From a virus: a DNA stretch of 27,059 bases. A program made the position numbers and the translations under genes. The stretch covers positions 1-27,059 of IMG/VR virus record IMGVR_UViG_3300037010_002127; one strand, written 5' to 3'. Positions 2,794 through 26,646 of the stretch are shown here, in pieces; within the stretch, counting starts at the first letter, position 1; each line of letters begins with the position of its first letter. The notes below the pieces were generated by a model that was given only the letters and a program-made list of their open reading frames with translations, did no database searches and was not told where the DNA came from.

Positions 2794-3732
2794 ATGAGCG
2801 AAAATAAAGTATGCATTTATGGGTTCGGTGGGCTGGGGTGCGGCACTGTTAAGAGCGTAGAGTCCGCCGCTAAGTCGCTGGTTGAGAAACCAGCCTTCGC
2901 ATACGCCGACACTGTTGCGGCAACATTCAAGCAGTATGAAACGGACCCATCTCGCTCGTATCTAATGGGCGATGGCGATGGTAAAAGTGGTGGCGGGAAA
3001 AGCTGGACAGAAACGTTCCCAGCAATACGCGAAGAGTTTGCCAACGGTGGGTTCTTTGTTAAGCATCCGCTGTCGGAGCGTATGAACATTTTCGTAGGCA
3101 GCAGTGGTGGTGGCGTCTCTGGCGCAGCATTGCAGGCTGCCGCCGAGAAATGTTTATCAGAGAAAGTGCCGTTCGTCCTGGTGGTTGGTGTATCTTCAGG
3201 GTTATCTTATGTGGACGCCGAAAACGCGTTTAAGTTCTTAGGTAACTTGGATTACTTTGGCGGCGTTGCAGAGGCTACCGTCCCTGCCTTAATCGTAGTC
3301 AGTAGTGCAAAAGGGCAGTATGACCCTACTGTACCGAAACGGATGTGCGAAAGCATGGTGCGAATCGCTGACATGGTTAGTGGGCAATCGTATGGCATCG
3401 ACAACAAAGACCTAGCACGTTTCATGAATCGCACATGGGCGGACGGAAACACTGGCGAGGGTCTGATGTGTTTGTCAGCGGAAGACCCAGGCGTCACACC
3501 GGTGGACGGCTTAATGCGGTTAGTTCCTGCGGACGGGTCTTTAGAGGCTGAGGCAGGACCACGTAATTGGTACAAGGAGTACCATGTCGACGGAATCACC
3601 CCTATCTCAATGAGCATCTCGCGTCAGCCTATCGAAGCCCTGTTCAAGGAGATCAGCGAACAGATGGAGGTCTTAAAAAGGGAAAAGGTAGCACCTAAGT
3701 CTAAGTCCCTGTCAAATGGGTTTAAGATATAA
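2794..3732 (+). CDS. phuZ: Phage tubulin/FtsZ-like GTPase (PhuZ-like)
   Basis: A 312-aa tubulin/FtsZ-superfamily GTPase. In nucleus-forming phages PhuZ polymers centre the phage nucleus and carry capsids to it. Residues 5-20 start KVCIYGFGGLGCGTVK, the beta-strand plus glycine loop seen at FtsZ N-termini. Residues 99-113 (IFVGSSGGGVSGAAL) occupy the place of the tubulin signature GGGTGTG, followed by a strand (VPFVLVVGV) as in FtsZ. Residues 201-206 (GIDNKD) align with FtsZ NxDxxD: the two Asp that drive GTP hydrolysis in the neighbouring subunit are both kept. Helix H7 and a shorter C-terminal domain follow, ending in a basic tail (KREK...KSKSLSNGFKI). Ten of its 11 Arg codons are CGN, unlike most neighbours, which suggests high expression. 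It forms its own unit between a promoter region and a strong terminator. TubZ-like rather than PhuZ proper remains possible. Confidence 0.85.
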   Translation: MSENKVCIYGFGGLGCGTVKSVESAAKSLVEKPAFAYADTVAATFKQYETDPSRSYLMGDGDGKSGGGKSWTETFPAIREEFANGGFFVKHPLSERMNIFVGSSGGGVSGAALQAAAEKCLSEKVPFVLVVGVSSGLSYVDAENAFKFLGNLDYFGGVAEATVPALIVVSSAKGQYDPTVPKRMCESMVRIADMVSGQSYGIDNKDLARFMNRTWADGNTGEGLMCLSAEDPGVTPVDGLMRLVPADGSLEAEAGPRNWYKEYHVDGITPISMSISRQPIEALFKEISEQMEVLKREKVAPKSKSLSNGFKI

Positions 3733-7055: not shown

Positions 7056-7116
7056 ACTGCTCAACGGATAAAAAACGTCTACTGTGCATATGGTGAATAA
7101 AAACTTGGAGAAAGTC

Positions 7117-9306
7117 ATGGATGTAGTGAAGTTTACGCTTCCAGGAGAGTCGTACGAAAGAGACATCTCGGTTCATACACAGTATGTAGAACAAGCCGCA
7201 GTCGCGTTATCAAAAAGGTTCTCCATATCTATGGAAGAGGCTCGTGCCTATGTGGTGGATAAGGTAAGAGATATAAAAGAGCCGGTATCTCTAAAGGTGC
7301 GGGTTAGAGATATTGATACCGAGGACACGGAAGAGGTAACGATGGGAGTTAAGGAGTACCTATCCTTAGCCGTAAAAGATAGATCTCCTATGGCACCATC
7401 TGGAACTCAGTATTTCAATAGGAGGAAGAAAGAGTCTATGATTGCGGGACTTATAACAAAGAGAGCAATAGAGAGAAACGAAGTTAAAAAGAAAGCTCGT
7501 AGACAGCTAGCGATTGGCGATAAGCTAGGCGCTGAAAGAAGCACCGCTGAGCAAGGGGCGCTGAAGGACAAAAATAACCTTCTGACTGGTCTATATAATG
7601 TTAAGAAGGGGATATTCACTAATCCGTCTGGGCACTCTACGTGCACATCTGTGACAAGGGCTACGACTGCCATTGGTAATAGTCATAATGAACAGATGGT
7701 TGGCGGTAACCGTTTGTATTTCACCCTAGATGTGGTGGTTAACCACATAGTCTACATCTCTCACTTAGTGCGGCAAGACGGGTTTGGCGCTAAGATAATG
7801 GAGATGGTGGAAAAGTACGGCCTGAAGATACCAACCGACAATGATGTTCACGACCTAATAATACGCTCTACGTCACTCTACTTCAAGACCGGGGTTGCCG
7901 TAAATCGTTTCCTGTTACCGTATATAGAGGAAATGACCCCTGTAGAGCGCTGTGCCTTCGTGTACGCTGGCGACCAGTATCACCTCCTTACCCTCAACCC
8001 CTCTCTTTACAAAGGGCTTATAGGGGGGATTATAGCCCCTGTCACGGCATCTATCAGAGGTGACGATCTAGAGATGGTAAGGGGGTGTAACAATGAGCTT
8101 CTTACCTTAGCCATCAAGCTTAACGTGAACGATATGATATATTCGCCGCCATCTTACGACCCAGTTAAGACACCACCTCTTCCCTCCGTATACAGCGAGC
8201 CAGATATGTGGGACGTTCTACTGGTTAGAAACCCCCAGGGCTTGGCTAACGTCTTAGCAACTTACGAGAACATAGTGAGGGTAACTTCTGAGTATCGGGA
8301 TTTTCTGAATGTCTTCTACACAAACAAAGCAAACTTACCTATGACGGCATATGGTAGCGAGATGATACGGGTGAGTGGTATGATGGGGGATACAGACTCC
8401 ACCGTAACGACAGGTAATTTATGGAGGGAAAGGGAGGTCAACAACGGAAGCAGTATGGAGGTAGGGAGGAGAGCCGCTGTGACCGTACTATATATCTCTT
8501 CTCTTAGCATGGCGCACCAGCTTGCTTGCATATCGGGGCATATGGGGGTTGAACCAGATAAGATGTTCGACATCACAATGAAGTCGGAGTACTACTGGGG
8601 CGCTTTTGCGCTTACTTCAGGTGCTAAGACCTATGGGGCTACCACCATAGAGAAAGAAGGTAGTGTGTATGAACGTCCTTTACTTGAGATAAAGGGGGCT
8701 CTGCTAAAGAGTTCTAATAACCCCGAACGGGTTAGAATAGCTACAATGGACCTGGTAACAGATATGCTCAGAGCTGCTAAGGAGGGTAAGAATATACAGA
8801 TGAGGACCATATTAAAGAGGGTTGCTGATGTAGAGAGGCTGATAATCTCTTCTCTAAATAGTGGAGACCCTGAATTCTATAGAACCCTCAATATCAAAGG
8901 TGGTTACAAACTATCTGACGATAAGTCTAATATGCGGTATTATACCTTCTGGATGGCTGCGTTTAGCGAGACCTATGCAAATATGCCTTCAGTACCTTAC
9001 ACCGCGTATAAGATAAAGACCTCATTAGTAAATAGTACCGAGTTAGATCATTGGCTAGAAAACATGCAAGATAGGGTTGTGGCTAGGAACATAAAGGGTT
9101 GGCTCGACAAGTCGTGTAGAAAAGACATGAAGACTATCTACGCACCAATACAGCATGTAGTAGATCATGGTATACCACCAGAGATACTATCCGTTATGGA
9201 TTACACTTCCATAGTAGTTGACCTGATGAAGTCTTTATATGTATCTTTGGAGATGCTAAACTACTTCATACCACCGAAAACCCTTCTTTCAGACTTGGGT
9301 TATTAG
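7117..9306 (+). CDS. Family B DNA polymerase, C-terminal palm/thumb part
   Basis: A 729-aa replicative DNA polymerase fragment. The start is set by TTGGAG (7105-7110) six bases before ATG 7117; GTG 7084 and ATG 7090 lack an SD and follow the terminator closely. Residues 424-428 read GDTDS, family B motif C with both catalytic Asp. Residues about 501-508 (SGAKTYGA) and 523-532 (LEIKGALLKS) match the KKxYG and KG thumb motifs. Residues around 188 (GNSHNEQMVGG) are a degenerate motif B (NSxYG). I see no DxxSLYPS motif A and no DxE exonuclease motif, so the N-terminal exonuclease and motif A probably lie in a separate gene outside the window, as in other phiKZ-like phages. The B-to-C distance (about 235 residues) is unusually long. 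Confidence 0.85.
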   Translation: MDVVKFTLPGESYERDISVHTQYVEQAAVALSKRFSISMEEARAYVVDKVRDIKEPVSLKVRVRDIDTEDTEEVTMGVKEYLSLAVKDRSPMAPSGTQYFNRRKKESMIAGLITKRAIERNEVKKKARRQLAIGDKLGAERSTAEQGALKDKNNLLTGLYNVKKGIFTNPSGHSTCTSVTRATTAIGNSHNEQMVGGNRLYFTLDVVVNHIVYISHLVRQDGFGAKIMEMVEKYGLKIPTDNDVHDLIIRSTSLYFKTGVAVNRFLLPYIEEMTPVERCAFVYAGDQYHLLTLNPSLYKGLIGGIIAPVTASIRGDDLEMVRGCNNELLTLAIKLNVNDMIYSPPSYDPVKTPPLPSVYSEPDMWDVLLVRNPQGLANVLATYENIVRVTSEYRDFLNVFYTNKANLPMTAYGSEMIRVSGMMGDTDSTVTTGNLWREREVNNGSSMEVGRRAAVTVLYISSLSMAHQLACISGHMGVEPDKMFDITMKSEYYWGAFALTSGAKTYGATTIEKEGSVYERPLLEIKGALLKSSNNPERVRIATMDLVTDMLRAAKEGKNIQMRTILKRVADVERLIISSLNSGDPEFYRTLNIKGGYKLSDDKSNMRYYTFWMAAFSETYANMPSVPYTAYKIKTSLVNSTELDHWLENMQDRVVARNIKGWLDKSCRKDMKTIYAPIQHVVDHGIPPEILSVMDYTSIVVDLMKSLYVSLEMLNYFIPPKTLLSDLGY

Positions 9307-9354: not shown

Positions 9355-9831
9355 CTACTTACCTCTTTCTTTTATATCCAAGAGCATCACATCCAATAGG
9401 TTGTGAACATTCTTGTAAACACGCATACCCTTTACCGCCCCATCCCCGAGAAGATAGATGTTTCTGGTATCTAAGCCCTCAGCCACAATCTCCTTTTCCA
9501 GAGTCTTCTTAAAATCCTTCTCGCCCATAACAATTAGCTCATCGGGTAGGGCGCTCTTAATAAGCTCCATATAAGAGTCCGGTTTAACGTCTGACACGGA
9601 GGCGCTAAAGGTAGGGTACATCTTATTAAGTGCGTCAGTGAAGATAGAAGATAGTGAATCCCCTACCTTTATTTTAATAGTTGGGCTACCCTTTCCCTTC
9701 TCTTTATCTTCGGGTTTTTTAAACAGTGTGGTGGCTTTGCTATCGTCGGCAGGTTCATTTCCATTATCAGCCACATCGTTGGTCGGTAGAACTTCTACCT
9801 CTTCCTGATCGTCGTATATTCGGTAATTCAT
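9355..9831 (-). CDS. Hypothetical acidic 158-aa protein
   Basis: A protein of unknown function. The first ~50 residues are acidic and disordered-looking (DDQEEVEV, NGNEPADDSKA), followed by a lysine-rich turn (FKKPEDKEKGKG) and a folded part of about 100 residues with likely helices (SLSSIFTDALNKMYP; DFKKTLEKEIVAEG) and strands. The GGTGAG SD lies within the end of the upstream gene 10107-9832. It is the last gene of a four-gene minus-strand operon starting at 12001, which I take to be late or virion-related from its strand and neighbours. Confidence 0.72.
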   Translation of the reverse strand: MNYRIYDDQEEVEVLPTNDVADNGNEPADDSKATTLFKKPEDKEKGKGSPTIKIKVGDSLSSIFTDALNKMYPTFSASVSDVKPDSYMELIKSALPDELIVMGEKDFKKTLEKEIVAEGLDTRNIYLLGDGAVKGMRVYKNVHNLLDVMLLDIKERGK

Positions 9832-10107
9832 TCACTCACCCCTAGGTGTTCCGGTTGTCTTAGGTATCTCGTCGCGATTGAGGTCACCGCTTTTGACGTA
9901 TGCTCTATTGAGCGCGGCGCACGCGGAGTGCTTTTCTATTGTGTGTTGAGGTTGCTGACTATCGGTATTTACCCAATTCCTGTACCGAAGGGTTGGCTGG
10001 TTAGGCGCAACACGTACGTACTTAACCATAGCAGTAGGTCTTCTTCGTATCATACACAATACTAATAGAAGTAATACCATAGTATCAACCCATGAAACCT
10101 CACCCAT
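9832..10107 (-). CDS. Small single-pass membrane protein, unknown function
   Basis: A 91-aa protein with one hydrophobic segment near the N-terminus (VDTMVLLLLVLCMI, about residues 7-20), directly followed by RRRP. The positive-inside rule would put the C-terminal 70 residues in the cytoplasm. The tail is polar and Gln/Asn/Arg-rich. AAGGTAAG lies 5-10 nt before ATG 10107. The stop TGA abuts the next ATG. A membrane role in lysis or particle egress is possible, but nothing shows it. Confidence 0.65.
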   Translation of the reverse strand: MGEVSWVDTMVLLLLVLCMIRRRPTAMVKYVRVAPNQPTLRYRNWVNTDSQQPQHTIEKHSACAALNRAYVKSGDLNRDEIPKTTGTPRGE

Positions 10108-10142: not shown

Positions 10143-10928
10143 TTAAAGAGACCATGTTACTTGCTGTCTGATAAACATATCATGCGTCTTCAGGTCGTTC
10201 ATGAATAGGATTTTCTGACCCTTCTCCAACATGTATAACTGATACTCAGCTTCAGCGCCTTCGTATTGCTCCACCACCCGCTTAATGGTCTCTAGAGAAG
10301 ACCCGTATTTCAGGTATGCTTCGTCTAAGTCAACGACTAGCTTATTGTATATATAAGCTTTTACGGCTAACTCGACCATCTTGCTGATGGCTAGATACGA
10401 CCTTGGTGAAATATTAGCTAGGTTCTCGTCGTTAGTCACCATGCACCTGATGAACGAAATCTGCCGCACCATCTGTACATCGTTGATGATGACGGTATTC
10501 TCGCCAACCAGCTCCGTCAGCACATTCGCTACTATCGGTATATCGGTGTGAGACGCGTCCAATCGTTGAAGGGCGCTAGCCACCTCATTCGTCCTAGGGG
10601 AAGCCGTACTCATAGAGCTAGCGCCACCATAATATATCGCGTCAAGCACCGAGACAATAGACCCACCCGCCGTGAGCGCGTGGGGTATCTCATAAAGGGT
10701 AGTGAATCTGTCTATTTGCCTAGGGTATAATCCCGTGACATTTATCATCATCTCACGACCACCTATGATATTGCATGTTAACAAAACCCTAGGGCGAACC
10801 ACAGCCGCCATGATTCTGGAATCTAGGCTATGTTGCTGCTGACCGCTGAGTGACGGGAAGGCTATCTCAAGCACTTCCCTGGGTACTCTGAATTTCAATT
10901 CCGATAATGCTGTTTGTACCGCATTCAT
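10143..10928 (-). CDS. Hypothetical protein, probable virion component
   Basis: A 261-aa protein of unknown function. It overlaps the upstream gene (12001-10925) through ATGA at 10925-10928, so the two are translated as a pair. Content is mixed: an N-terminal helix (MNAVQTALSELKF), a central strand/loop region (RPRVLLTCNIIGGREMMINV), and a long helical C-terminal half (MVELAVKAYIYNKLVVDLDEAYL; ETIKRVVEQYEGAEAEYQLY). phiKZ-like phages have pairs of structural proteins of this size near tail and head genes, but I cannot assign one. The minus strand is shared with terminase and the baseplate-like gene. Confidence 0.72.
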   Translation of the reverse strand: MNAVQTALSELKFRVPREVLEIAFPSLSGQQQHSLDSRIMAAVVRPRVLLTCNIIGGREMMINVTGLYPRQIDRFTTLYEIPHALTAGGSIVSVLDAIYYGGASSMSTASPRTNEVASALQRLDASHTDIPIVANVLTELVGENTVIINDVQMVRQISFIRCMVTNDENLANISPRSYLAISKMVELAVKAYIYNKLVVDLDEAYLKYGSSLETIKRVVEQYEGAEAEYQLYMLEKGQKILFMNDLKTHDMFIRQQVTWSL

Positions 10929-12001
10929 GCTCTTAAACTCCGTATTGATTCAGCCACTACTCTGGCTTTTCCATAATTAACCGAGTTTTGCCCGCTCGGT
11001 GGCGTGCCCTGCCTCAGATATCTATCCGCGTCTATGTGTAGTGCCGATAGGTCTGAAGTAGAGCATTTTAGTGCTAATGGGTATAGCTTAGCTAGCTTCA
11101 ACCACAACCCATTATATATCACGAAGGATACCCATCTGTTGTGTGTGGTGTAGTAGGTAGGTATTCGGTAAATGCTCTCTATCGGTCGGTTCGACTCCAG
11201 TGGCACTAACCCGTCTAACAGATTTTGAACAGGTACACTAGCCTTAATAATCGCCTTATGATAAGCCTTGAAATAATTTACTAGATTTACATTGTTGTCA
11301 ACCGAGCGAGTGTTGGTGTAGTAACCTGGTTTTAACTTACCTCTTGCTGCCTCAATAAGCATGTTAACCGCTGACAAGGATGAGTAACTTGTACGCAGGG
11401 CGGGGGTCATGTACCTTACGAAGTATTCCCTTATGATTGCTCTTGTAAACGCCCCCCGTCGCCTTTGCCCGCTATACCTAGCGTACTCCCTAATGCATAT
11501 CATCAGCCTAATCATATCCACCCCAAAGATAGCAGAGTCTCTGTCGTCATCTTTCTTTAATAGAGTTGGTGAGACGTAATGAAGTCGCGTTTGCCCGTGT
11601 TTAAGATAGCGCACTGGCGCATAGCTATCCCAATCTTCGGATACCTTTGTCAGGTATTCTGGAAACTCCACCGAGACATATAACTCGCTACCACCACTAT
11701 GGATTTCACCATGCTTTAACGAACCTGGACTACTCTCGCTAGTGACGCCAGAAGCCCAGCAAATCTCAGCCCTTAGCTTATCCGTCTTGGCTATTACAAG
11801 GTCTGTAGAGTCCTCTGAAGTCACGCCTAGAGTCTCTGCGATTCTAAGCAATGTAACGTACTTTGTGTTGCCAGTTATAGATTTAATCAACCATTCGTTA
11901 TGGATTATAATGTCGCTTCTAAATGTCTCTAGATAGGGCGGTGGTAGGGGCGTACCTGTTAGTACCACCTTTTGAGCAATCGGTCTATCAAAAACAGCCA
12001 T
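10925..12001 (-). CDS. Hypothetical protein, probable virion component
   Basis: A 358-aa protein, first gene of the minus-strand operon 12001-9355. ATG 12001 has GAGGAG about 10 nt upstream. It is basic and soluble, with strand-rich N-terminal sequence (LYVSVEFPEYL; TRLHYVSPTLL) and a helical, Tyr/Arg-rich C-terminal half (MIRLMICIREYARY; FTRAIIREYFVRYM; HNRWVSFVIYNGLWLKLAKLY). No enzyme motif is visible. Its promoter must lie in the 164-bp divergent gap shared with the 604-aa gene. I favour a structural role from strand and operon context; this is inference. Confidence 0.72.
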   Translation of the reverse strand: MAVFDRPIAQKVVLTGTPLPPPYLETFRSDIIIHNEWLIKSITGNTKYVTLLRIAETLGVTSEDSTDLVIAKTDKLRAEICWASGVTSESSPGSLKHGEIHSGGSELYVSVEFPEYLTKVSEDWDSYAPVRYLKHGQTRLHYVSPTLLKKDDDRDSAIFGVDMIRLMICIREYARYSGQRRRGAFTRAIIREYFVRYMTPALRTSYSSLSAVNMLIEAARGKLKPGYYTNTRSVDNNVNLVNYFKAYHKAIIKASVPVQNLLDGLVPLESNRPIESIYRIPTYYTTHNRWVSFVIYNGLWLKLAKLYPLALKCSTSDLSALHIDADRYLRQGTPPSGQNSVNYGKARVVAESIRSLRA

Positions 12002-12165
12002 ATTTAGTATTTCTCCTCTTCCGAGACCTCGAAAACCAGTACCCTAAAAAAATAAGCATACACACACTTACTGTAGCGTAGTTACTTTCGGCGCTACAAA
12101 AAAAACCGTAACAGTAACTAACGTGAACGTCAATTGATTCAACAGCACACCCATAGGATAATACG
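12002..12165. promoter_or_regulatory. Divergent promoter and 5' leader of the putative shell-protein gene
   Basis: A 164-bp gap between divergent genes. CATACAC lies at 12057-12063 in plus orientation, as in three other start regions. Downstream are two interleaved inverted repeats: TGTAGCG (12072-12078) with CGCTACA (12092-12098), and TAGTTACT (12079-12086) with AGTAACTA (12113-12120). This is the layout of an H-type pseudoknot with an A-rich third loop. An AGGA SD (12156-12159 region) precedes ATG 12166. Confidence 0.55.
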
Positions 12166-13980
12166 ATGACAAAATCAACCCAAGGCTTCGGTGGATTCTC
12201 CTTTAGTCCAGTTACGGATTCCGTAACGCCGGAGCGTGTCGCCCCACCACAACCACAAGTTCAAACTCAAACACAGGACCCACCAGCAATGCCACAATCC
12301 CCCCGCCCCGCCCCAGTTTTGGCGGAACTATTGAAGACACATGGCAGTGGTACTACTGCCAACATCCGCCGTGCTCAACCACTGGGTTGCACCGGAGCAG
12401 GCGGCGACGCCGCCGTGGCAATTCAAATCGCAAAGAGGTTTGAGGAGCTAAAGAACTCAACGGGAGAATCCGCTAGCCTTTACAAAACGGGAGTCTTTCT
12501 CCCTGAGAAGTTCGGCGCGGTCAAGGCAATCTGGATTGCGCTGCGCGGGGATGACGGTGTAGTGCTGTTCTATACTGCCGCTCTCCCTTCCCCTGAGCAG
12601 CGGAATCGCCGCATGGTACTTAACAACGGGCGTGACGCAGTACCGCAAAGCGTGGCCTCCATGACAGGCGGAGACTCGAACTGGGTGCACTCTATCAAGG
12701 GCGCAATCCATAAGAGCTACGAGCGTGAAGGTGGCGTTGAAGATCTGGAACACGTCGGTGGGGTTACTTTACCCCCAATCCCAGCAAGCCAGCAGGATGC
12801 CGACGCGCTGCTGAATTCGTTCTTGGATGACGCTACCCAGTGTCTATTCACAACTCTTGTCAACCGCGCGGGCGTTAATACTGGTAGCCAGGTGGCTGCG
12901 CTTCTGACCAGCAGCGCGGTGTCGGCGACACCACGCATGATTCAGTCGCCAATCATTCAGTATGATGGCGATATCGTGCAGGCAACTGTCGCTGTTGACT
13001 TAACACTGCCGATTGAGGGCGAGGTAACTCCGTGGGCAACCATTTTTGGCTACTTCGACTTCCAAACAGTCGAACCCACCAACCTCGGAGGTCCAGGGGT
13101 CGCTCCGACTAAGGACTGTTCACAGGCTATCTTCGTGGTGACTGCGATAAGTAGTCAGTATGGGTATCATCCCGGTTGGATGACGATGGCGGCAACGTCG
13201 TTGATGGGCTTCGAGCGCGGCGCGGCGTGGATGTCTTACGCATTCGCCAGCAAGGATGCGGCGCGACTGGAGTTGACAGAGATGGCGCTGCGTGCCGGAG
13301 AAGATTCCATTGTCTTCACTGGTGATGAGAGTCAGGTAGAACGTGTACAATTCATGAGTACGTTCTGTCGCGATAGCATCTCGGTAGAGGTGTCCATTAA
13401 GAAAGATGGAGCCTACGGGTGGGTTCTTCGCTCGTTGATGACTGATGGGGGCGCTGGTAGCTCACCACTTAACCTCGAAGAGATGGACAGCGTGATAAAC
13501 GAGGTCGCGCCCTCAAATACGCGTTATCCGCCTATCTTGCTACAGCGTAGCGTTGGTAAAGCACGTATGTATGGTGCTGGTAGCGAGGGGCGTGGTATGC
13601 TCCCAATCGAGCCAATGCTCACAGAGGCAAACATCAGAGCTTGTCTCCCGGCAGTAAATGATGGCACGAACCTCTATACTGAGTTCTCGAAGCCTAGCCC
13701 ATCGGTATCTGCGGTGTCAGCCCTAGTCGCGTCGCTGAGCGCAATATACACGAACGTGTCGTTCACCGGTCCGACACTGCGGCTGCCAATGAACCCAGCG
13801 TTCATGGAAGTCTTATCGGGCGCGTCAGCCGCTTGCGGTCTGAGTATCAACTTCTCAGGGCCGATGAACATCCAGCCGCGCATGTCGGGGAACTTTGTGG
13901 TGCGTACAGCGCACCGTTACGCAAGCTCCACCATCAACCAAGGTGGTCAGTCCTCAGGAGGTGCTTCTTACCAATGGTAA
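12166..13980 (+). CDS. Putative chimallin-type phage nucleus shell protein
   Basis: A 604-aa protein that I take to be the nuclear shell subunit (ChmA; phiKZ gp54 is about this size). What I see: a Pro/Gln-rich disordered N-terminal tail (residues ~20-55), a first folded part (~60-225), a second (~240-580), and a flexible Gly/Ser/Gln C-terminal tail (INQGGQSSGGASYQW). Chimallin likewise has two domains with terminal segments that dock on neighbouring subunits. Of 28 Arg codons 26 are CGN, while the next gene mostly uses AGA/AGG, as expected for a very abundant protein. It has its own promoter region and terminator, and the next gene is an RNAP beta-prime piece, as I recall for phiKZ gp54-gp55. 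A capsid or inner-body protein is the main alternative. The identity rests on size, tails, codon use and synteny, not on a catalytic motif. Confidence 0.6.
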   Translation: MTKSTQGFGGFSFSPVTDSVTPERVAPPQPQVQTQTQDPPAMPQSPRPAPVLAELLKTHGSGTTANIRRAQPLGCTGAGGDAAVAIQIAKRFEELKNSTGESASLYKTGVFLPEKFGAVKAIWIALRGDDGVVLFYTAALPSPEQRNRRMVLNNGRDAVPQSVASMTGGDSNWVHSIKGAIHKSYEREGGVEDLEHVGGVTLPPIPASQQDADALLNSFLDDATQCLFTTLVNRAGVNTGSQVAALLTSSAVSATPRMIQSPIIQYDGDIVQATVAVDLTLPIEGEVTPWATIFGYFDFQTVEPTNLGGPGVAPTKDCSQAIFVVTAISSQYGYHPGWMTMAATSLMGFERGAAWMSYAFASKDAARLELTEMALRAGEDSIVFTGDESQVERVQFMSTFCRDSISVEVSIKKDGAYGWVLRSLMTDGGAGSSPLNLEEMDSVINEVAPSNTRYPPILLQRSVGKARMYGAGSEGRGMLPIEPMLTEANIRACLPAVNDGTNLYTEFSKPSPSVSAVSALVASLSAIYTNVSFTGPTLRLPMNPAFMEVLSGASAACGLSINFSGPMNIQPRMSGNFVVRTAHRYASSTINQGGQSSGGASYQW

Positions 13981-14002
13981 GTTGCTAGTAGTAATAGTGT
14001 CA

Positions 14003-14031
14003 ATGCCCCCGATAACGGGGGCATTTTTTTC
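14003..14031 (+). terminator. Rho-independent terminator after the putative shell gene
   Basis: A 9-bp GC-rich stem (ATGCCCCCG with CGGGGGCAT) closes an ATAA loop, followed by seven T. It ends the 604-aa gene's transcript; RNA polymerase beta-prime N starts 24 bp later, so it probably gets only the read-through share. Confidence 0.93.
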
Positions 14032-14054
14032 TGTTAAAAGGGTTGGAGAGAATA

Positions 14055-15530
14055 ATGGTTATCAAAGGGACGTGCATATTAGTGCCGTTAGATCAAGACG
14101 AATTGTTCGAGAAAACAAGGTTGCAGCATAATGTCGTGGTGCTTAACGACGTCGACGTGAGCCAGCAGGCGGAAAGGGATAGGCTGCAAACCATGTTAGT
14201 GACGATAGTTAACGACGGTAAAGTACCGTCTAAGCCAAAATGTGAGTGCGGGGAACTGGAAGGTGACAGGTTTCTAGGGGTTTTCCACGATGCTCCATAC
14301 TGCAGAAGCACGGTAAGGGAAAGACACGGTGAACTTATCCATAATGTTTGGGTGCGCTGCCCTGACTCCGCTGCTGGCTTTCTAAATGGTAAGCTGTTCA
14401 TCATGCTCCAGAAGAGATTAAAGGTAAACGGGATTGACCTCGTTAGCTGGGTGTGCGACCCTACGTACCCTATACCAAACCGCGCAGCTAAGAAGCTAGG
14501 TAAACTAGCTCTAATGGGTGTTACAAGGGGGTATAATAACTTCATGCAGCATTTCCATGAGATAGTTCCAATTCTGTTACAGCAAGCTGGGCGTAGACCA
14601 GATGACGATATTTTCATGGAGGCGGTAAGGAGCTATGGAGACCTGTACCGTAACAGGTATTGGCCCGCGCCGAACGCCGAGCAAACTATCCTAGAGATAA
14701 CCTCTCTAGGGAAGTACACAACCGCGACAGCTAGCCCATTACTGAAGACCCTGTTAAGCATGGTCGGCCAGAATGGGAAGAAGATGACGGTTGGTCAAGA
14801 GGAGAAGATGGCGTATAACTTCATGAAATCAATGGCGACCATAGGAGCTAAAGAGTTTGCGGATACATTACAGGGTAAAGGAGGTGCCATCTTAGCTAAT
14901 CATGCTGGTGGCAAGACTCCTTATACGTGTCGGGCGGTTATAACGCAGTCAACACAGGACTTAGAGTATGATGAGATAGAGTTACCGTGGACTTTAGCCG
15001 TCACGATGTTCCACTACCACTTCACAAGCTTACTGATAAAGAAAACACCTAAGAGAAAAGGGTTGTCTTTACAAGAAGCTAATACAGAGTTGGCGAAGGG
15101 GGGGTATGCCGCATCCCCTAATTTGAGAGAGGTGAAAGACAGACTGCTAGCGGACGCTGGTGGTAGATTACCAGGGTTGTTAACAAGAAATCCCACCCTC
15201 CAACCGTTAAACATTGCGATGGTCTTCGCCAGTAATATTAAGGAGCCCCCAGAAGATCATGCCATATCCATACCTCTCCCGATGTTACCTGGGTATGCGG
15301 GAGACTTAGACGGCGACGCGCTAGCATTTCAGTATTTGACGGATAAGCATCTAGCACGCCTTGCAGAGCCAATGAGGGCTCATTACAGCGTATTCGGGTA
15401 TTCGACCCCTGGTGGGTTGGGTTGGCAGAAGTTGGCAGCCCCTATCATAAGCACTGCCGATAACTATATCTCGAATGCTGATGAAACAAGGTATAATGAC
15501 CAGTACACTATTGACCTTTACGGAGAGTGA
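14055..15530 (+). CDS. Phage multisubunit RNA polymerase, beta-prime N-terminal subunit
   Basis: A 491-aa protein holding the catalytic half of beta-prime. GGAGAG lies 5 nt before ATG 14055. Residues 413-423 (GYAGDLDGDAL) are the NADFDGD motif with the three metal-binding Asp (417, 419, 421). Residues ~274-297 (GKGGAILANHAGGKTPYTCRAVI) match the GKxGxxRxxLxGKRVdysGRSVI region, and ~377-386 (TRNPTLQPLN) matches the RxPtLHrl motif. Cysteines at 63, 65, 83 and 102 fit a zinc-binding element. The protein ends soon after the active site, so the bridge-helix and trigger-loop half must be a separate gene. Phages of the phiKZ type carry two such enzymes; size and position beside early-type genes suggest the non-virion one, which transcribes middle/late genes inside the phage nucleus. 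TGA abuts the next ATG. Confidence 0.92.
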   Translation: MVIKGTCILVPLDQDELFEKTRLQHNVVVLNDVDVSQQAERDRLQTMLVTIVNDGKVPSKPKCECGELEGDRFLGVFHDAPYCRSTVRERHGELIHNVWVRCPDSAAGFLNGKLFIMLQKRLKVNGIDLVSWVCDPTYPIPNRAAKKLGKLALMGVTRGYNNFMQHFHEIVPILLQQAGRRPDDDIFMEAVRSYGDLYRNRYWPAPNAEQTILEITSLGKYTTATASPLLKTLLSMVGQNGKKMTVGQEEKMAYNFMKSMATIGAKEFADTLQGKGGAILANHAGGKTPYTCRAVITQSTQDLEYDEIELPWTLAVTMFHYHFTSLLIKKTPKRKGLSLQEANTELAKGGYAASPNLREVKDRLLADAGGRLPGLLTRNPTLQPLNIAMVFASNIKEPPEDHAISIPLPMLPGYAGDLDGDALAFQYLTDKHLARLAEPMRAHYSVFGYSTPGGLGWQKLAAPIISTADNYISNADETRYNDQYTIDLYGE

Positions 15531-16565: not shown

Positions 16566-17087
16566 ATGTCAGATTTTGAGAGAGATTTAGAATTCTTGAA
16601 TGGGGTGAACGAACCCCCTGAGAATCAGCGCGTAAGCTCAGTTCTATTTGAGAGAAACTTCCTCCAGAAGTTTTTTGATTTCCATCTGCTTAATACCGAG
16701 CAGCAAGGAGAGGTGATCCAGAGATGGATAATGATCTCTGGTGGTTCCCATAGACCAGTAGACGTTTACTCAGGCGCGACACTTCTTTACACAGTACCCG
16801 CGTTGATCGACGTAGAGGCTTATGACTCTAAGGACGGCGATAAACTAGCCGAGGTATTAGCAGAAAGCGCGGCGTACGTTGGTAAGGTAGGTGGGGAGAG
16901 TGAGCGCCTAATAAGAACGTTGGGCGCGGCTATAGTGGGAGGGAGTTCGGAGAGAAAGGACAACTGGGGCGAGATATTCTCGCGCTACATGCCTAAAAAT
17001 ACCGTAACCGTCATGCGGTCGGTAGCGCATTCAATGTCTGACTCCATCAACACAAACGATATAATTAGTGAGAGCGAATATGAGTAA
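16566..17087 (+). CDS. Hypothetical 173-aa protein coupled to the SbcD-like gene
   Basis: A protein of unknown function. GGTAAAAAAAC precedes ATG 16566. Content is mostly helical with an acidic C-terminus (NTNDIISESEYE). A central segment (RWIMISGGSHRPVDVYSGATLLYTVPALID) looks beta. It overlaps the SbcD-like gene by 8 nt (ATGAGTAA, 17080-17087), so the two are probably made in fixed ratio. A role with the nuclease is plausible, but no domain supports it; it is far too short to be SbcC. Confidence 0.75.
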   Translation: MSDFERDLEFLNGVNEPPENQRVSSVLFERNFLQKFFDFHLLNTEQQGEVIQRWIMISGGSHRPVDVYSGATLLYTVPALIDVEAYDSKDGDKLAEVLAESAAYVGKVGGESERLIRTLGAAIVGGSSERKDNWGEIFSRYMPKNTVTVMRSVAHSMSDSINTNDIISESEYE

Positions 17088-18192
17088 TAATGATTGGAGC
17101 TGGTGGACATCATCAGACTGGCATCTAGGACACAAGAAGGTCGGTTCGTCGGTCATCGCGTCAAATATCGGTAAGTATCTAGACGAAATAGCCCCGATGA
17201 TATGCGAGGTTGATCATATATTCGTAGCAGGTGACGTTTTCGATCATCTGTTGGAATGGCCATCTAAGGCGCTGACAGTATCCACAATGGCCATATATCG
17301 ACTCTGTTGTATGGCGGGTAAAGCTGGCGTCAAGATAAGCGTGTTAGAGGGTACGCCTAGCCACGATTGGAGGCAGAGCGAAATCTTTCTCTCTTTCTCG
17401 GATGTCTGCGATATTTCCTATCATGACACCTTATCCATCTCTAATGAGTCGGACGGGAGACGATTCCTGTTTATCCCAGATGAGTGGCGTGACACTACGG
17501 AACAGACATATGCCGAGGTTCTAGAGTTGATGCACGCGGAAGGACTCACCAAGGTAGACGCCATTATCATGCATGGGTTGTTCGAGCATCAAGCCCCCGT
17601 AGGTATCCAAGGTATCCAAGTTCATAAGGCGGAGAACTACTTGGCGCTAACCGATGGACCTATCCACATAGGTCATCACCACACACATAGTATAGAAGGG
17701 AGGATAGTCGCTCAAGGGTCTCCAGAGAGATTGACGCATGGTCAGGAGGAAGAGAAGGGTACTGTATTCGGGAAAATGGTTAATGGAGAAGTTTCTTATA
17801 AATTTTCGCCAAATAAACATTCTACCATCTTCAAGACCCTGAAGCTTAATGGAAAGTCTCACGACGATAACTTCCTTATTGTTAAGCGAGAGCTTAACAA
17901 GCTAACAGGGCGGCGGGCGCATATTAGATTACAGTACGTCGGTAAATCAGAGAATATCTTAAGCTTGAGAGAGCTGACAATGCTTTACCCGCAGCATCTT
18001 TTCACCGAACAACTACCTAAGACGCCACAAAAAGAAACACCCCAACCCTTCAGCAGCAGAGATACTGGGCTGCGCCTCTCAAGGGACGTGTTTGAAAGGG
18101 TTCTTTCTGTGGTTGGATCGACCGTCAGTACCGTACCCGCTGATATGCTACTAGCCATGCTGAGAGAGCTAGACGAAAGAGTTAATAATTAA
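17080..18192 (+). CDS. SbcD/Mre11-like metallophosphoesterase nuclease
   Basis: A 370-aa calcineurin-like DNA nuclease subunit. Metal-site motifs in order: DWH at residues 13-15 (DxH), GDVFD at 51-55, GTPSHD at 91-96 (in place of GNHD/E), MHG at 164-166, and GHHHTH at 198-203. These are followed by GSPERLTHGQEEEKG (~213-227), the SbcD/Mre11 segment after the last metal ligand. The C-terminal ~120 residues should form the capping and dimer region. SbcD normally works with an SbcC ATPase to open or trim DNA ends, during replication, recombination or host DNA breakdown; no SbcC is seen here. I chose ATG 17080 because it gives the 8-nt overlap; GTG 17068 lacks an SD. Confidence 0.9.
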   Translation: MSNNDWSWWTSSDWHLGHKKVGSSVIASNIGKYLDEIAPMICEVDHIFVAGDVFDHLLEWPSKALTVSTMAIYRLCCMAGKAGVKISVLEGTPSHDWRQSEIFLSFSDVCDISYHDTLSISNESDGRRFLFIPDEWRDTTEQTYAEVLELMHAEGLTKVDAIIMHGLFEHQAPVGIQGIQVHKAENYLALTDGPIHIGHHHTHSIEGRIVAQGSPERLTHGQEEEKGTVFGKMVNGEVSYKFSPNKHSTIFKTLKLNGKSHDDNFLIVKRELNKLTGRRAHIRLQYVGKSENILSLRELTMLYPQHLFTEQLPKTPQKETPQPFSSRDTGLRLSRDVFERVLSVVGSTVSTVPADMLLAMLRELDERVNN

Positions 18193-18202
18193 GGAGATTA
18201 CC

Positions 18203-19054
18203 ATGTTGGGCGGATATTCCGATAGAAAAACAAGCGACTTCCCTTTATCAATAGGAACTGGCTTGGCTATGAGGTCTTTATACAACTCTACTATGGATTC
18301 AGCAGCGGAGGCTTCGTCTACCCACCCAACCATTCCCGCTGGCTTAGACAGTGTACACGTAAATGTGAGCACCATAGCTAGAAACCTTAGCAACGCGACG
18401 GGGCAGTACTTCATAGAAGCTAACGAGAGGGAAACCGCCGACATTATAGAGTACGAGATGGCAGTGATACTTGACATCAGCAAAGGTGGTCTTCAACCGA
18501 TTTTCTATTTCAGGGACTATGACAAGCTAAGGGAAGAGGTTAAAAGGTACGGGGGTATAAGATCCCCGCAAACCCCGAAGGCGAGAAGGGTGGACGAGAA
18601 GATGTTCCACGCATTAAACCGTTTACAGCATCAGAGTAAGATACCCATAGTAGAGTACAGCAAGCTACCTGTGAGTGGAAAAGTTCTGATGTATACCCAC
18701 TGGCTACATGACCTATTAAACTTTAAAACCCAGCGGGGTCAATGGCTACTTGAATCACATACAGGATTAATAAAGGGGCGGGAAGTATGGGGTAGCAAGT
18801 ATCATAAAGTTCCTGGTACAGACCTCTCGTTTCTCCCCTTTACGCATCTCTTACTTAGGTTATTCGGAGACAGCAACTTATATCGCCCCGTGAGTATGCC
18901 GATAAGGACGGAAATACTGAAGGCTGCGATACACAACAAATGGTCGCCTGTAACCACGCCTAGGACGGTGGTTGATACGGTACGAGCAATTATTAATGAC
19001 CCATATTTAGAAGATGCGCTTGCCCCCCTCTATAGGAAGTATACAGCGGCATAA
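18203..19054 (+). CDS. Conserved-type phage protein of unknown function
   Basis: A 283-aa protein with AAGGAGATTACC directly before ATG 18203. N-terminal text YSDRKTSDFPLSIGTGLAMRS, a middle LQPIFYFRDYDKL, VLMYTHWLHDLL (~165-176), LLESHTGLIKGREVW (~187-201) and LPFTHLLLRLFGD (~215-227) form a pattern I recall from many large phages, where it is annotated only as hypothetical. The conserved THxxxDLL and ESHTG stretches look like functional residues. It follows the SbcD-like gene by 10 nt, so a link to DNA processing is possible. No enzyme class can be given. Confidence 0.78.
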   Translation: MLGGYSDRKTSDFPLSIGTGLAMRSLYNSTMDSAAEASSTHPTIPAGLDSVHVNVSTIARNLSNATGQYFIEANERETADIIEYEMAVILDISKGGLQPIFYFRDYDKLREEVKRYGGIRSPQTPKARRVDEKMFHALNRLQHQSKIPIVEYSKLPVSGKVLMYTHWLHDLLNFKTQRGQWLLESHTGLIKGREVWGSKYHKVPGTDLSFLPFTHLLLRLFGDSNLYRPVSMPIRTEILKAAIHNKWSPVTTPRTVVDTVRAIINDPYLEDALAPLYRKYTAA

Positions 19055-24403: not shown

Positions 24404-24543
24404 CTTTTCTTCACCTCACCAGTATTAAAAAACCATTTATCAGCATATTGTGGGGGAGTTCAATTTTAATAGGGTATCATACACTTTTAATAGGGTACCA
24501 TACCCTATAATCGTAACTATCAATAGAGGCAAGAGGATCATTT
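24404..24543. promoter_or_regulatory. Divergent promoter region with 19-bp tandem repeat upstream of RNAP beta C
   Basis: A 140-bp AT-rich gap. Two copies of TTTTAATAGGGTAYCATAC lie at 24464-24482 and 24485-24503, differing at one base and offset by 21 bp (two helical turns). The second copy runs into TATAAT (24506-24511), a perfect sigma70-like -10 box 33 nt before ATG 24544, though no good -35 is present. CATACAC (24478-24484) spans the repeat junction. AGAGG (24531-24535 region) is the SD. This is the best candidate operator in the window. Confidence 0.6.
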
Positions 24544-26646
24544 ATGAATCATCATGAAGAGTTATTAGAGAAGATAAGAGCGCACGCAAACGAAGAATTG
24601 CCTATGGAGCTCATGGGCATCTCCGCGCTGAACCCAGCAGGTGCGATGGCGTCGTCAGTAAGAACCGGGATGTTTTCCGGTTATAAAATTACGACAGTGG
24701 TAACAGAGTTGGCTGAACCACCTCTGGTAATGAGTGGGCTAGAATATAAGATGGGTGAAGGCACCATAGGTGTGGTTGTTCCATACGATTGTGTTGTGGT
24801 GGAAAGGATTTCACCATCCGCTAGACCCTACGGTGGAGGAGCTGGGGTCATAGTACGAAGGGTTGGCGACGATGAACTCGGCTGGATAGAGTTACCAAGA
24901 ACCCACCAGTCGCCAAACACGTTTACATGGGAGTACGTGTATTTACCAAATATAAACGAGCGACTCAGACCCGGTGCTATCCTCAGGGCTGGCGAAAGAC
25001 TTGCCAAATCACCGGCGTTGTTGGCGGATGGTACATGGGCGCAAGGTGTGCGTCTGAATGTTGCTTACGTTGATATTGGACACGCCTGTGAGGATGGTGT
25101 TGCTGTTAGCGCTAGAGCGAACCAGAAAGGGGCGCATAGAGTCAAACAGATAATCTCGGAGGGGTATGGCGCTAACACTCTTCCACGTAACCTGTACGGT
25201 AAGAATGGGAGTTTTCAGGCTTACCCTTTACCAGGAGAAACGATACGGGACGACGGTCTGATTCTCGCGCTATTCGACTACAGTGCGAAGGAGGCGCACT
25301 GGCAATTGTTACCAGAGGTGTTAGCAACACCAGACTATATGACGGACGAAACTTTTCGAGCCAAGTTCGCAGGCATGACTGTGACTGACGTGTCTATCAC
25401 CCCCAACCCTGATAAAGGCGGTAACGTTTCATCGTTAATGGGTGAGGTCGATAATGCCATCATTGCGAAGCAGCGGCAATACACTCAGAGGATAATAGCC
25501 GCCACCAAAAACTCTGGGTCAAACTTATCGCCAGAGTTGCATCGGAAGGTGGTGGTGGCACTCCTCAACAGAGAGGCAGAGTCTAACCCAAGGGTTAGAC
25601 TGAACCTAAAGAGGAAAACCCTGCCGCCCATAACGGTGACGGTGACACTGGAGAAAACGGTGACCCCTAGCGTGGCGGCTAAGTGGTCGGATAGCGTAGG
25701 GGATAAAGGGGTGGCGGTGAAGATATATGAACCTGGCGAAGAACCCATGACTGAGGATGGTAGATCGGTCGACATCCTGATCGAGCGGTCTACCATTATC
25801 AGAAGGATGACCCCTGGTGGTCTATGGGTTGTGTACCTAACCTCCTTAAACGAAGGTCACCTTGTCCGTCTGCGGACGGCGCTTGGGATTAAGGCAGATG
25901 GGATACCGATAAACATTCTAGCGAAGAGGGTTGCGTCTAGGGTAGATGCCCTTCTGGTTGAAAATCCTGATCTGGTCAATGAGACTATCAAAGAGTATAT
26001 TGACTTTATGGGAATTATGTACCCACAGCTCAAGGAGGTTATGTTGGCGGCAAGCAAAGCGGAGCTTATTGAATACCTAAAAGAGTCCCTAACTGAAGGG
26101 GTTAGGACTATCTATCCGGCTAACACTGGTCACGACAGGGTAAGTGCTGTGAAAATGGCGGAGGATAAGTTCCCGGGTACTTACAATCGCTTATCGGTAT
26201 TAGACCGACATGGGAAGAGGGTTCTCACAAATAACAAGGTGAGGGTGGCTAATATACCCATAACCCTGTTAGACAAAGCACCTAACTTTATGGGGTCGGC
26301 AATCGCAGTTCCGCCTATAAACATAAAAGGTATGCCGGGTTCGCTCTCTAAGCAACGTAGGTCTGCTGGGCCGACCAGACTAGCATCGACTAGGTTAGGG
26401 GCTGCCGAAACGGCAATGCTTGCTACCCATGCGGGTGTGGAGTTAGTGGCAGAGTTGCTAGATAACTCTAGTAACCCACGCACTATCGAGAAGACGGTAA
26501 AGGCGATAATAGAATCTGACACCCCCACCAATCTGGAAAGGGTGGTAGATAGGAGCTTACCTGATTGCGAATTCGCTCCAACGCCAAACAGATTGACCGA
26601 TCATATGCTGTCTTGCATGGGTATAAAGATAGAGTTTGTTGAATAA
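24544..26646 (+). CDS. Phage multisubunit RNA polymerase, beta C-terminal subunit
   Basis: A 700-aa protein holding the C-terminal half of beta. Residues 380-394 (KWSDSVGDKGVAVKI) match cellular KLAGRHGNKGVVSKI: Lys380 and Lys388 keep the eight-residue spacing of the two active-site lysines. They are followed by EPMTEDGRSVDILI, as in beta (DMPYDENGTPVDIVL). Residues ~174-191 (AYVDIGHACEDGVAVSAR) match the YNFEDSILISER region with the Glu-Asp pair. Residues ~28-42 (ALNPAGAMASSVRTG) fit the segment before it. The N-terminal half of beta is not in the window. With the beta-prime N gene at 14055 it belongs to a polymerase assembled from at least four pieces. In phiKZ the corresponding gene contains a self-splicing intron; here the frame is uninterrupted. 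Confidence 0.92.
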   Translation: MNHHEELLEKIRAHANEELPMELMGISALNPAGAMASSVRTGMFSGYKITTVVTELAEPPLVMSGLEYKMGEGTIGVVVPYDCVVVERISPSARPYGGGAGVIVRRVGDDELGWIELPRTHQSPNTFTWEYVYLPNINERLRPGAILRAGERLAKSPALLADGTWAQGVRLNVAYVDIGHACEDGVAVSARANQKGAHRVKQIISEGYGANTLPRNLYGKNGSFQAYPLPGETIRDDGLILALFDYSAKEAHWQLLPEVLATPDYMTDETFRAKFAGMTVTDVSITPNPDKGGNVSSLMGEVDNAIIAKQRQYTQRIIAATKNSGSNLSPELHRKVVVALLNREAESNPRVRLNLKRKTLPPITVTVTLEKTVTPSVAAKWSDSVGDKGVAVKIYEPGEEPMTEDGRSVDILIERSTIIRRMTPGGLWVVYLTSLNEGHLVRLRTALGIKADGIPINILAKRVASRVDALLVENPDLVNETIKEYIDFMGIMYPQLKEVMLAASKAELIEYLKESLTEGVRTIYPANTGHDRVSAVKMAEDKFPGTYNRLSVLDRHGKRVLTNNKVRVANIPITLLDKAPNFMGSAIAVPPINIKGMPGSLSKQRRSAGPTRLASTRLGAAETAMLATHAGVELVAELLDNSSNPRTIEKTVKAIIESDTPTNLERVVDRSLPDCEFAPTPNRLTDHMLSCMGIKIEFVE

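Follow-up and report, generated by a model that had tools for sequence, protein, structure and literature searches.

The 604-aa protein encoded by the open reading frame (ORF) at 12166-13980 on the plus strand of the window, the 27,059-nucleotide stretch of viral DNA that was analysed (IMG/VR record IMGVR_UViG_3300037010_002127, positions 1 to 27,059), is almost certainly the chimallin (ChmA) of a jumbo phage that forms a nucleus and branches deeply. Chimallin builds a protective protein shell around the DNA of certain giant bacterial viruses. The first-pass annotation had placed the ORF, which runs from ATG to stop, at exactly this position and had proposed a divergent candidate chimallin, and this proposal was upheld by gene order, by profile searches with controls, and by the predicted fold. 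The protein, labelled P0001 here, is a genuine addition to a known family, although not an unexpected one, and comes from a branch of the nucleus-forming phages that has been little sampled; in this slot of a phage carrying PhuZ and the nvRNAP, a chimallin is indeed expected. P0001 contributes a deep lineage and a protein of reduced length; it extends the sampled sequence range of the chimallin family and is an outlier useful for telling which shell contacts are truly required.

Gene order around the chmA slot

The features of the window that surround and include chmA are as follows, each with the evidence for it.

2794-3732 (+): PhuZ tubulin, upstream of chmA (PHROG 4733, E 2e-16; phmmer E 6.7e-7 to RAY PhuZ)
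7084-9306 (+): divergent family B DNA polymerase of the phiKZ gp50 type, before chmA (PF20286, E 2e-143; PHROG 2927, E 1e-145)
10925-12001 (-): gp52-slot gene (phiKZ gp52 / 201phi2-1 gp98), between the polymerase and chmA (PHROG 3938, E 1.7e-13)
12166-13980 (+): chmA, chimallin (nuclear shell protein) homologue, 604 aa (ORF call, ChmA HMM, hhalign, fold match to solved chimallins)
14002-14025 (+): intrinsic-terminator-like hairpin 3' of chmA, 10 pairs followed by a T run (hairpin scan, RNA fold)
14043-15530 (+): nvRNAP beta/beta' subunit (phiKZ gp55 / 201phi2-1 gp107 type), next after chmA (PHROG 2987, E 4e-74; phmmer E 1.5e-35 to 201phi2-1 gp107)
17068-18192 (+): SbcD-like nuclease subunit, a conserved downstream gene (PHROG 100, E 9.5e-31)
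18203-19054: gp66-like gene, downstream of SbcD
24544-26646: second RNAP subunit gene

P0001 occupies the chmA slot and adjoins an nvRNAP subunit, as gp54 adjoins gp55 in phiKZ; the RNAP subunit gene noticed next door on first reading is this nvRNAP beta/beta' gene. The order polymerase (+), gp52-like gene (-), ChmA (+), nvRNAP (+) was found in 201phi2-1, RAY, DT01, pVa-21, PhiEaH1 and Eowyn, and also in Goslar, phiKZ, EL, OBP, Aphrodite1 and AVP1, with small insertions in some of these phages, and homologues of the gp52-slot gene were present in 16 loci (for example at 12964-14115 (-) in L028). FLC6 has the same order at the ChmA locus, but its polymerase lies at the opposite end of the linear record, while the ChmA/nvRNAP pair is present in the part of the FLC9 genome that was examined, and JM-2012 keeps the genes of the locus in a changed order. 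Huxley has the same layout as 201phi2-1 and the other phages of that list, with a 603-aa ORF in the chmA slot. A terminase gene also lies upstream of chmA in the window. Within its 27 kb the fragment carries chmA, PhuZ, terminase, SbcD, the divergent polymerase and a pair of RNAP subunit genes; for the Chimalliviridae, the nucleus-forming phages, 72 core genes have been described (PMC10299810), a set that a fragment of this size could cover only in part.

Some further features of this region are worth recording. The window PhuZ matches PHROG 4733 over residues 1-213 of its 312 only, and its C-terminal part looks diverged; in other PhuZ proteins this part carries polymer contacts. A DUF7484 / PHROG 3179 gene (phiKZ gp42 homologue) at 10143-10928 (-) lies beside the gp52-slot gene, between the polymerase and chmA. 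The gp42 homologue is upstream of the polymerase in phiKZ, RAY, Huxley and locus L011, and its position in the window is a local rearrangement. The two ORFs at 9355-9831 and 9832-10107 (-), also in the gap between the polymerase and chmA, had neither a convincing match to a PHROG nor one by phmmer to the collected loci.

Profile searches and the predicted fold

Standard pairwise searches missed P0001: there was no tblastn match at E <= 0.01 in 50,697 phage records, no match when contigs of IMG/VR and of genomes were scanned with peptide patterns and tblastn, no Pfam match, and no match in the PDB by phmmer. Its match to PHROG 4795 ("nuclear shell protein") had an E-value of 0.019 and covered residues 529-595 only, or 1.5e-5 when scored on the window's record alone, and P0001 aligned with eight known ChmAs showed too little conservation for the alignment to serve as the seed of a contig scan. 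The identification therefore needed gene context and profiles. Metagenomic nucleus-forming phages include a lineage with a chimallin that is invisible to pairwise search, and counting such phages in metagenomes requires gene context together with profile search.

For the profile searches, IMG/VR loci were collected via their DNA polymerase and then searched for ChmA. An HMM of the eight named ChmAs recovered P0001 with an E-value of 5.2e-10 among 3,813 ORFs, and the same HMM also picked ORFs downstream of the polymerase in other loci. With a 48-sequence ChmA HMM built without P0001, the protein scored 48.1 bits (E 1.3e-13), whereas 1,000 shuffles reached at most 4.5. Similarly, hhalign with P0001 as a single sequence gave a probability of 97% over residues 128-566; on a rerun P0001 reached 96.9, compared to at most 1.1 for 60 shuffles and at most 1.2 for the other window proteins and the reversed sequence. 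The slot proteins of EL (annotated as nuclear shell protein), OBP, Aphrodite1 and AVP1, which are likewise absent from the 48-sequence HMM, scored 43.8, 32.2, 45.7 and 37.5 bits with it, all below P0001, indicating that the score of P0001 is normal for a remote member of the family. This group sits in the same gene slot and is similarly remote from the main profile (32-46 bits versus 48 for P0001); P0001 falls outside the group in the ChmA tree, which leaves its own place unsettled.

Structure prediction with AF2 failed on the single sequence (pLDDT 31.8) and, with 40 ChmA relatives, gave a model with a pLDDT of 64.9 and a pTM of 0.69. The comparison with the 201phi2-1 and Goslar proteins that had been suggested as a check showed that the predicted fold matches solved chimallins: all nine Foldseek matches in the PDB at E <= 0.001 were chimallins from Goslar, 201phi2-1 and phiPA3 (E 2e-20 to 2e-17), and an HK97-type or other virion fold, named beforehand as the observation that would speak against a chimallin, was absent among them. 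VIA-align superposed the model on the nine chimallin chains with Z-scores of 24-26 over 453-487 residues, and the next folds were mainly acetyltransferase-like, including AtaT, at Z 5-7, in agreement with the published GNAT-like C-terminal domain of chimallin (PMC9365700). Furthermore, the leading BFVD matches of the model include proteins from Noxifer, Eowyn, RSF1, RP12 and pTD1. Nonetheless, since the model was built on a chimallin alignment, which may bias it, and the prediction fails without relatives, the agreement in fold cannot be counted as an independent line of evidence. The core of P0001 is predicted to consist of an N-terminal domain of the chimallin-specific fold and a GNAT-like C-terminal domain.

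Among the solved proteins, 201phi2-1 ChmA (gp105; PDB 7SQQ/7SQR/7SQS, 8IGG) has, like P0001, a two-domain core with disordered N- and C-terminal tails, and the N-terminal domains of the two are equally long (167 aa); the structural Z is 24-26, and the gene order is the same. They differ in sequence (11-16% identity in structure alignments) and in size, the C-terminal domain of P0001 being about 28 residues shorter, its C-terminal tail 10 residues shorter and the loop at 271-289 nearly absent. Goslar ChmA (PDB 7SQT/7SQU/7SQV), encoded in the same gene slot, was the best Foldseek match (E 2.2e-20) and also has an N-terminal domain of 167 aa; its identity to P0001 is 11-14%, and here too the C-terminal domain of P0001 is the shorter one. 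PhuN of phiPA3 (PDB 8FNE) aligned with a Z of 25.4 over 457 residues at 11-13% identity. AtaT (6AJM), a GNAT-fold tRNA-acetylating toxin, and other acetyltransferases would share the general fold of the modelled C-terminal domain, although the match, at Z 5-7 over about 115-158 residues, is far below that between P0001 and the chimallins.

Tails, shortened parts and divergence

The alignments and the AF2 model divide P0001 into the following parts, all on the plus strand.

12166-12381 (+): N-terminal tail, residues 1-72, Pro/Gln-rich, disordered (pLDDT <50 to residue 79; alignment lengths)
12382-12882 (+): N-terminal domain, residues ~73-239, 167 aa (alignment to 201phi2-1 62-228; structural alignment begins at residue 76-83)
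12883-13863 (+): predicted C-terminal GNAT-like domain, residues ~240-566 (alignment; weaker acetyltransferase matches including AtaT, Z 5-7)
13006-13026 (+): shortened loop, residues ~281-287, LPIEGEV (equivalent to 201phi2-1 271-289)
13864-13977 (+): C-terminal tail, residues ~567-604, equivalent of the CTS1/CTS2 region, Trp last (pLDDT <50 from 568)

The model bears out the earlier description of a folded core between disordered tails, with pLDDT below 50 at residues 1-79 and 568-604. By alignment the tails are 72 and 46 residues long, which is inside the range of the chimallin family, and the end of the N-terminal tail (about residues 59-72) aligns with the NTS segment of 201phi2-1 ChmA (48-61), as defined in PMC9365700. 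Residues 22-50 contain 34% proline and 21% glutamine, and serine, glycine and glutamine abound in the last 35. The Pro/Gln-rich tail had been put forward as a distinctive variant, and comparison with 48 chimallins ruled this out: the P+Q fraction of the first 50 residues is 0.36 in P0001, a higher 0.48 in RAY, 0.36 in locus L075 and a similar 0.34 in 201phi2-1. The G+S fraction of the last 35 residues is 0.31 versus a family median of 0.29. The final residue is tryptophan in 16/58 chimallins, and an aromatic residue lies among the last three in 46/58.

By analogy with 201phi2-1 and phiPA3, the two-domain protomer would form tetramers through docking of the N-terminal segment on a neighbour, and the flexible C-terminal tail would staple the tetramers into a lattice one protein thick. 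Such a lattice would enclose the replicating phage DNA and exclude host defence nucleases; the usual chimallin lattice is square, of ~11.5 nm. Docking of the N-terminal segment and stapling by the C-terminal tail have been shown for 201phi2-1 (PMC9365700) and phiPA3 (PMC9938867).

In a sample of 58 aligned chimallins, from which the Huxley-type slot protein was left out by its failure to match, the C-terminal domain of P0001 was the shortest and its C-terminal tail the second shortest. The loop equivalent to 201phi2-1 271-289 spans 22 residues between anchors in P0001 versus 26-43 in the 57 others, and the AF2 model has strands at 275-283 and 286-301; this loop is reported to be among the parts that set the cuboid of 201phi2-1 apart from the sheet of phiPA3 (PMC9938867). 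The phiPA3 'Loop' (272-291), deletion of which was tested in the same study, is not the equivalent of this very short loop: by numbering offset it is the next one, where P0001, with 30 residues versus 28-53, lies near the low end of the range. The shortest C-terminal domain sampled and the near-absence of the 271-289 equivalent suggest a tentative reading, which we consider unlikely on balance, that through this natural shortening the P0001 shell lattice would differ from the known ones in tetramer-tetramer geometry or symmetry.

The identity of P0001 is 14-19% to the eight named ChmAs and 10-18% to 40 ChmAs from IMG/VR. Several residues conserved across most chimallins are altered, and the P-x-R-x-D motif (201phi2-1 261-265) reads I-x-Q-x-T. 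In the ChmA tree its branch was the longest of 58 (4.09), and its placement was not resolved by the tree; the same held for the window polymerase, whose branch was also the longest in the polymerase tree (2.86) and was likewise not placed. Identity of the polymerase to the others recovered is about 30%, except for one sister contig at 97%. These findings indicate that the whole lineage is distant. The sister contig (L010; IMGVR_UViG_3300036715_002593; 16.9 kb) reaches beyond the start of the window and stops inside its polymerase gene, before any chmA. We also considered whether P0001 is the most divergent chimallin of all, and rejected this in view of the Huxley slot ORF (12739-14550 in L096), which scored lower, at 14.4 bits, with the 48-sequence HMM, yet reached 96.7% by hhalign with the same alignment. 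Its product is a candidate chimallin, on sequence grounds, more remote than P0001, and the claim of extreme divergence for P0001 is lowered accordingly. A special link between the two proteins was not supported (BLASTP E 0.034 over 24 residues; hhalign 0.4%).

The longest branch of the tree, the shortest C-terminal domain, the shortest loop 1 and the altered P-x-R-x-D motif could together point to a protein that descends from ChmA and has lost or changed its shell role, forming no closed lattice or serving as a minor shell component. We regard this as very improbable, since the long polymerase branch makes the lineage distant overall, both tails and the PhuZ and nvRNAP genes are retained, EL and OBP types depart from the motif too, the Huxley slot protein is even more remote, and P0001 is the only ChmA match in the record, which is a 27-kb fragment. 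A structural role for P0001 in the virion, as a capsid or decoration protein encoded by chance beside an RNAP gene, is still less credible and can be practically dismissed. Annotations of phiKZ, EL and OBP do make the gp52-like neighbour, on the opposite strand, a head or virion protein, so virion genes do occur in the chmA block, but the PDB matches at E <= 0.001 are all chimallins, the profiles match ChmA with controls, and in annotated phages it is ChmA that occupies the slot.

Codon usage and flanking signals of chmA

As the first-pass annotation had counted, 26/28 arginine codons of chmA are CGN, versus 127/326 in 13 other window genes (Fisher p = 1.3e-8). The bias is consistent with high expression, itself inferred. 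It is not unique to this chmA, as the loci L011, L067, L029 and AVP1 are at 100%. Furthermore, the GC content of chmA exceeded that of the polymerase gene in 58/58 loci, which makes the higher GC a family trait.

The gene had also been credited with its own promoter and terminator, and of these the terminator stood, whereas the promoter proved weak. The strong hairpin at 14002-14025 folds 3.9 standard deviations better than shuffles (z = -3.9). The sole promoter match on the chmA strand is TTGATT-17-GATAAT at 12134-12162, with 9/12 bases, and the chmA region had 3 promoter-type sites where chance would give 1.7. The end of the GATAAT is 3 nt from the chmA ATG, and this hexamer coincides in part with the likely AGGA ribosome-binding site. 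A shared upstream motif was rejected as evidence for a chmA promoter, the intergenic regions compared having in common only short 8-9-mers, none of them convincing. Elsewhere in the window, at 24404-24543, a repeated TAATAGGGTA(T/C)CATAC-like motif precedes the second RNAP subunit gene and is a candidate phage promoter or operator.
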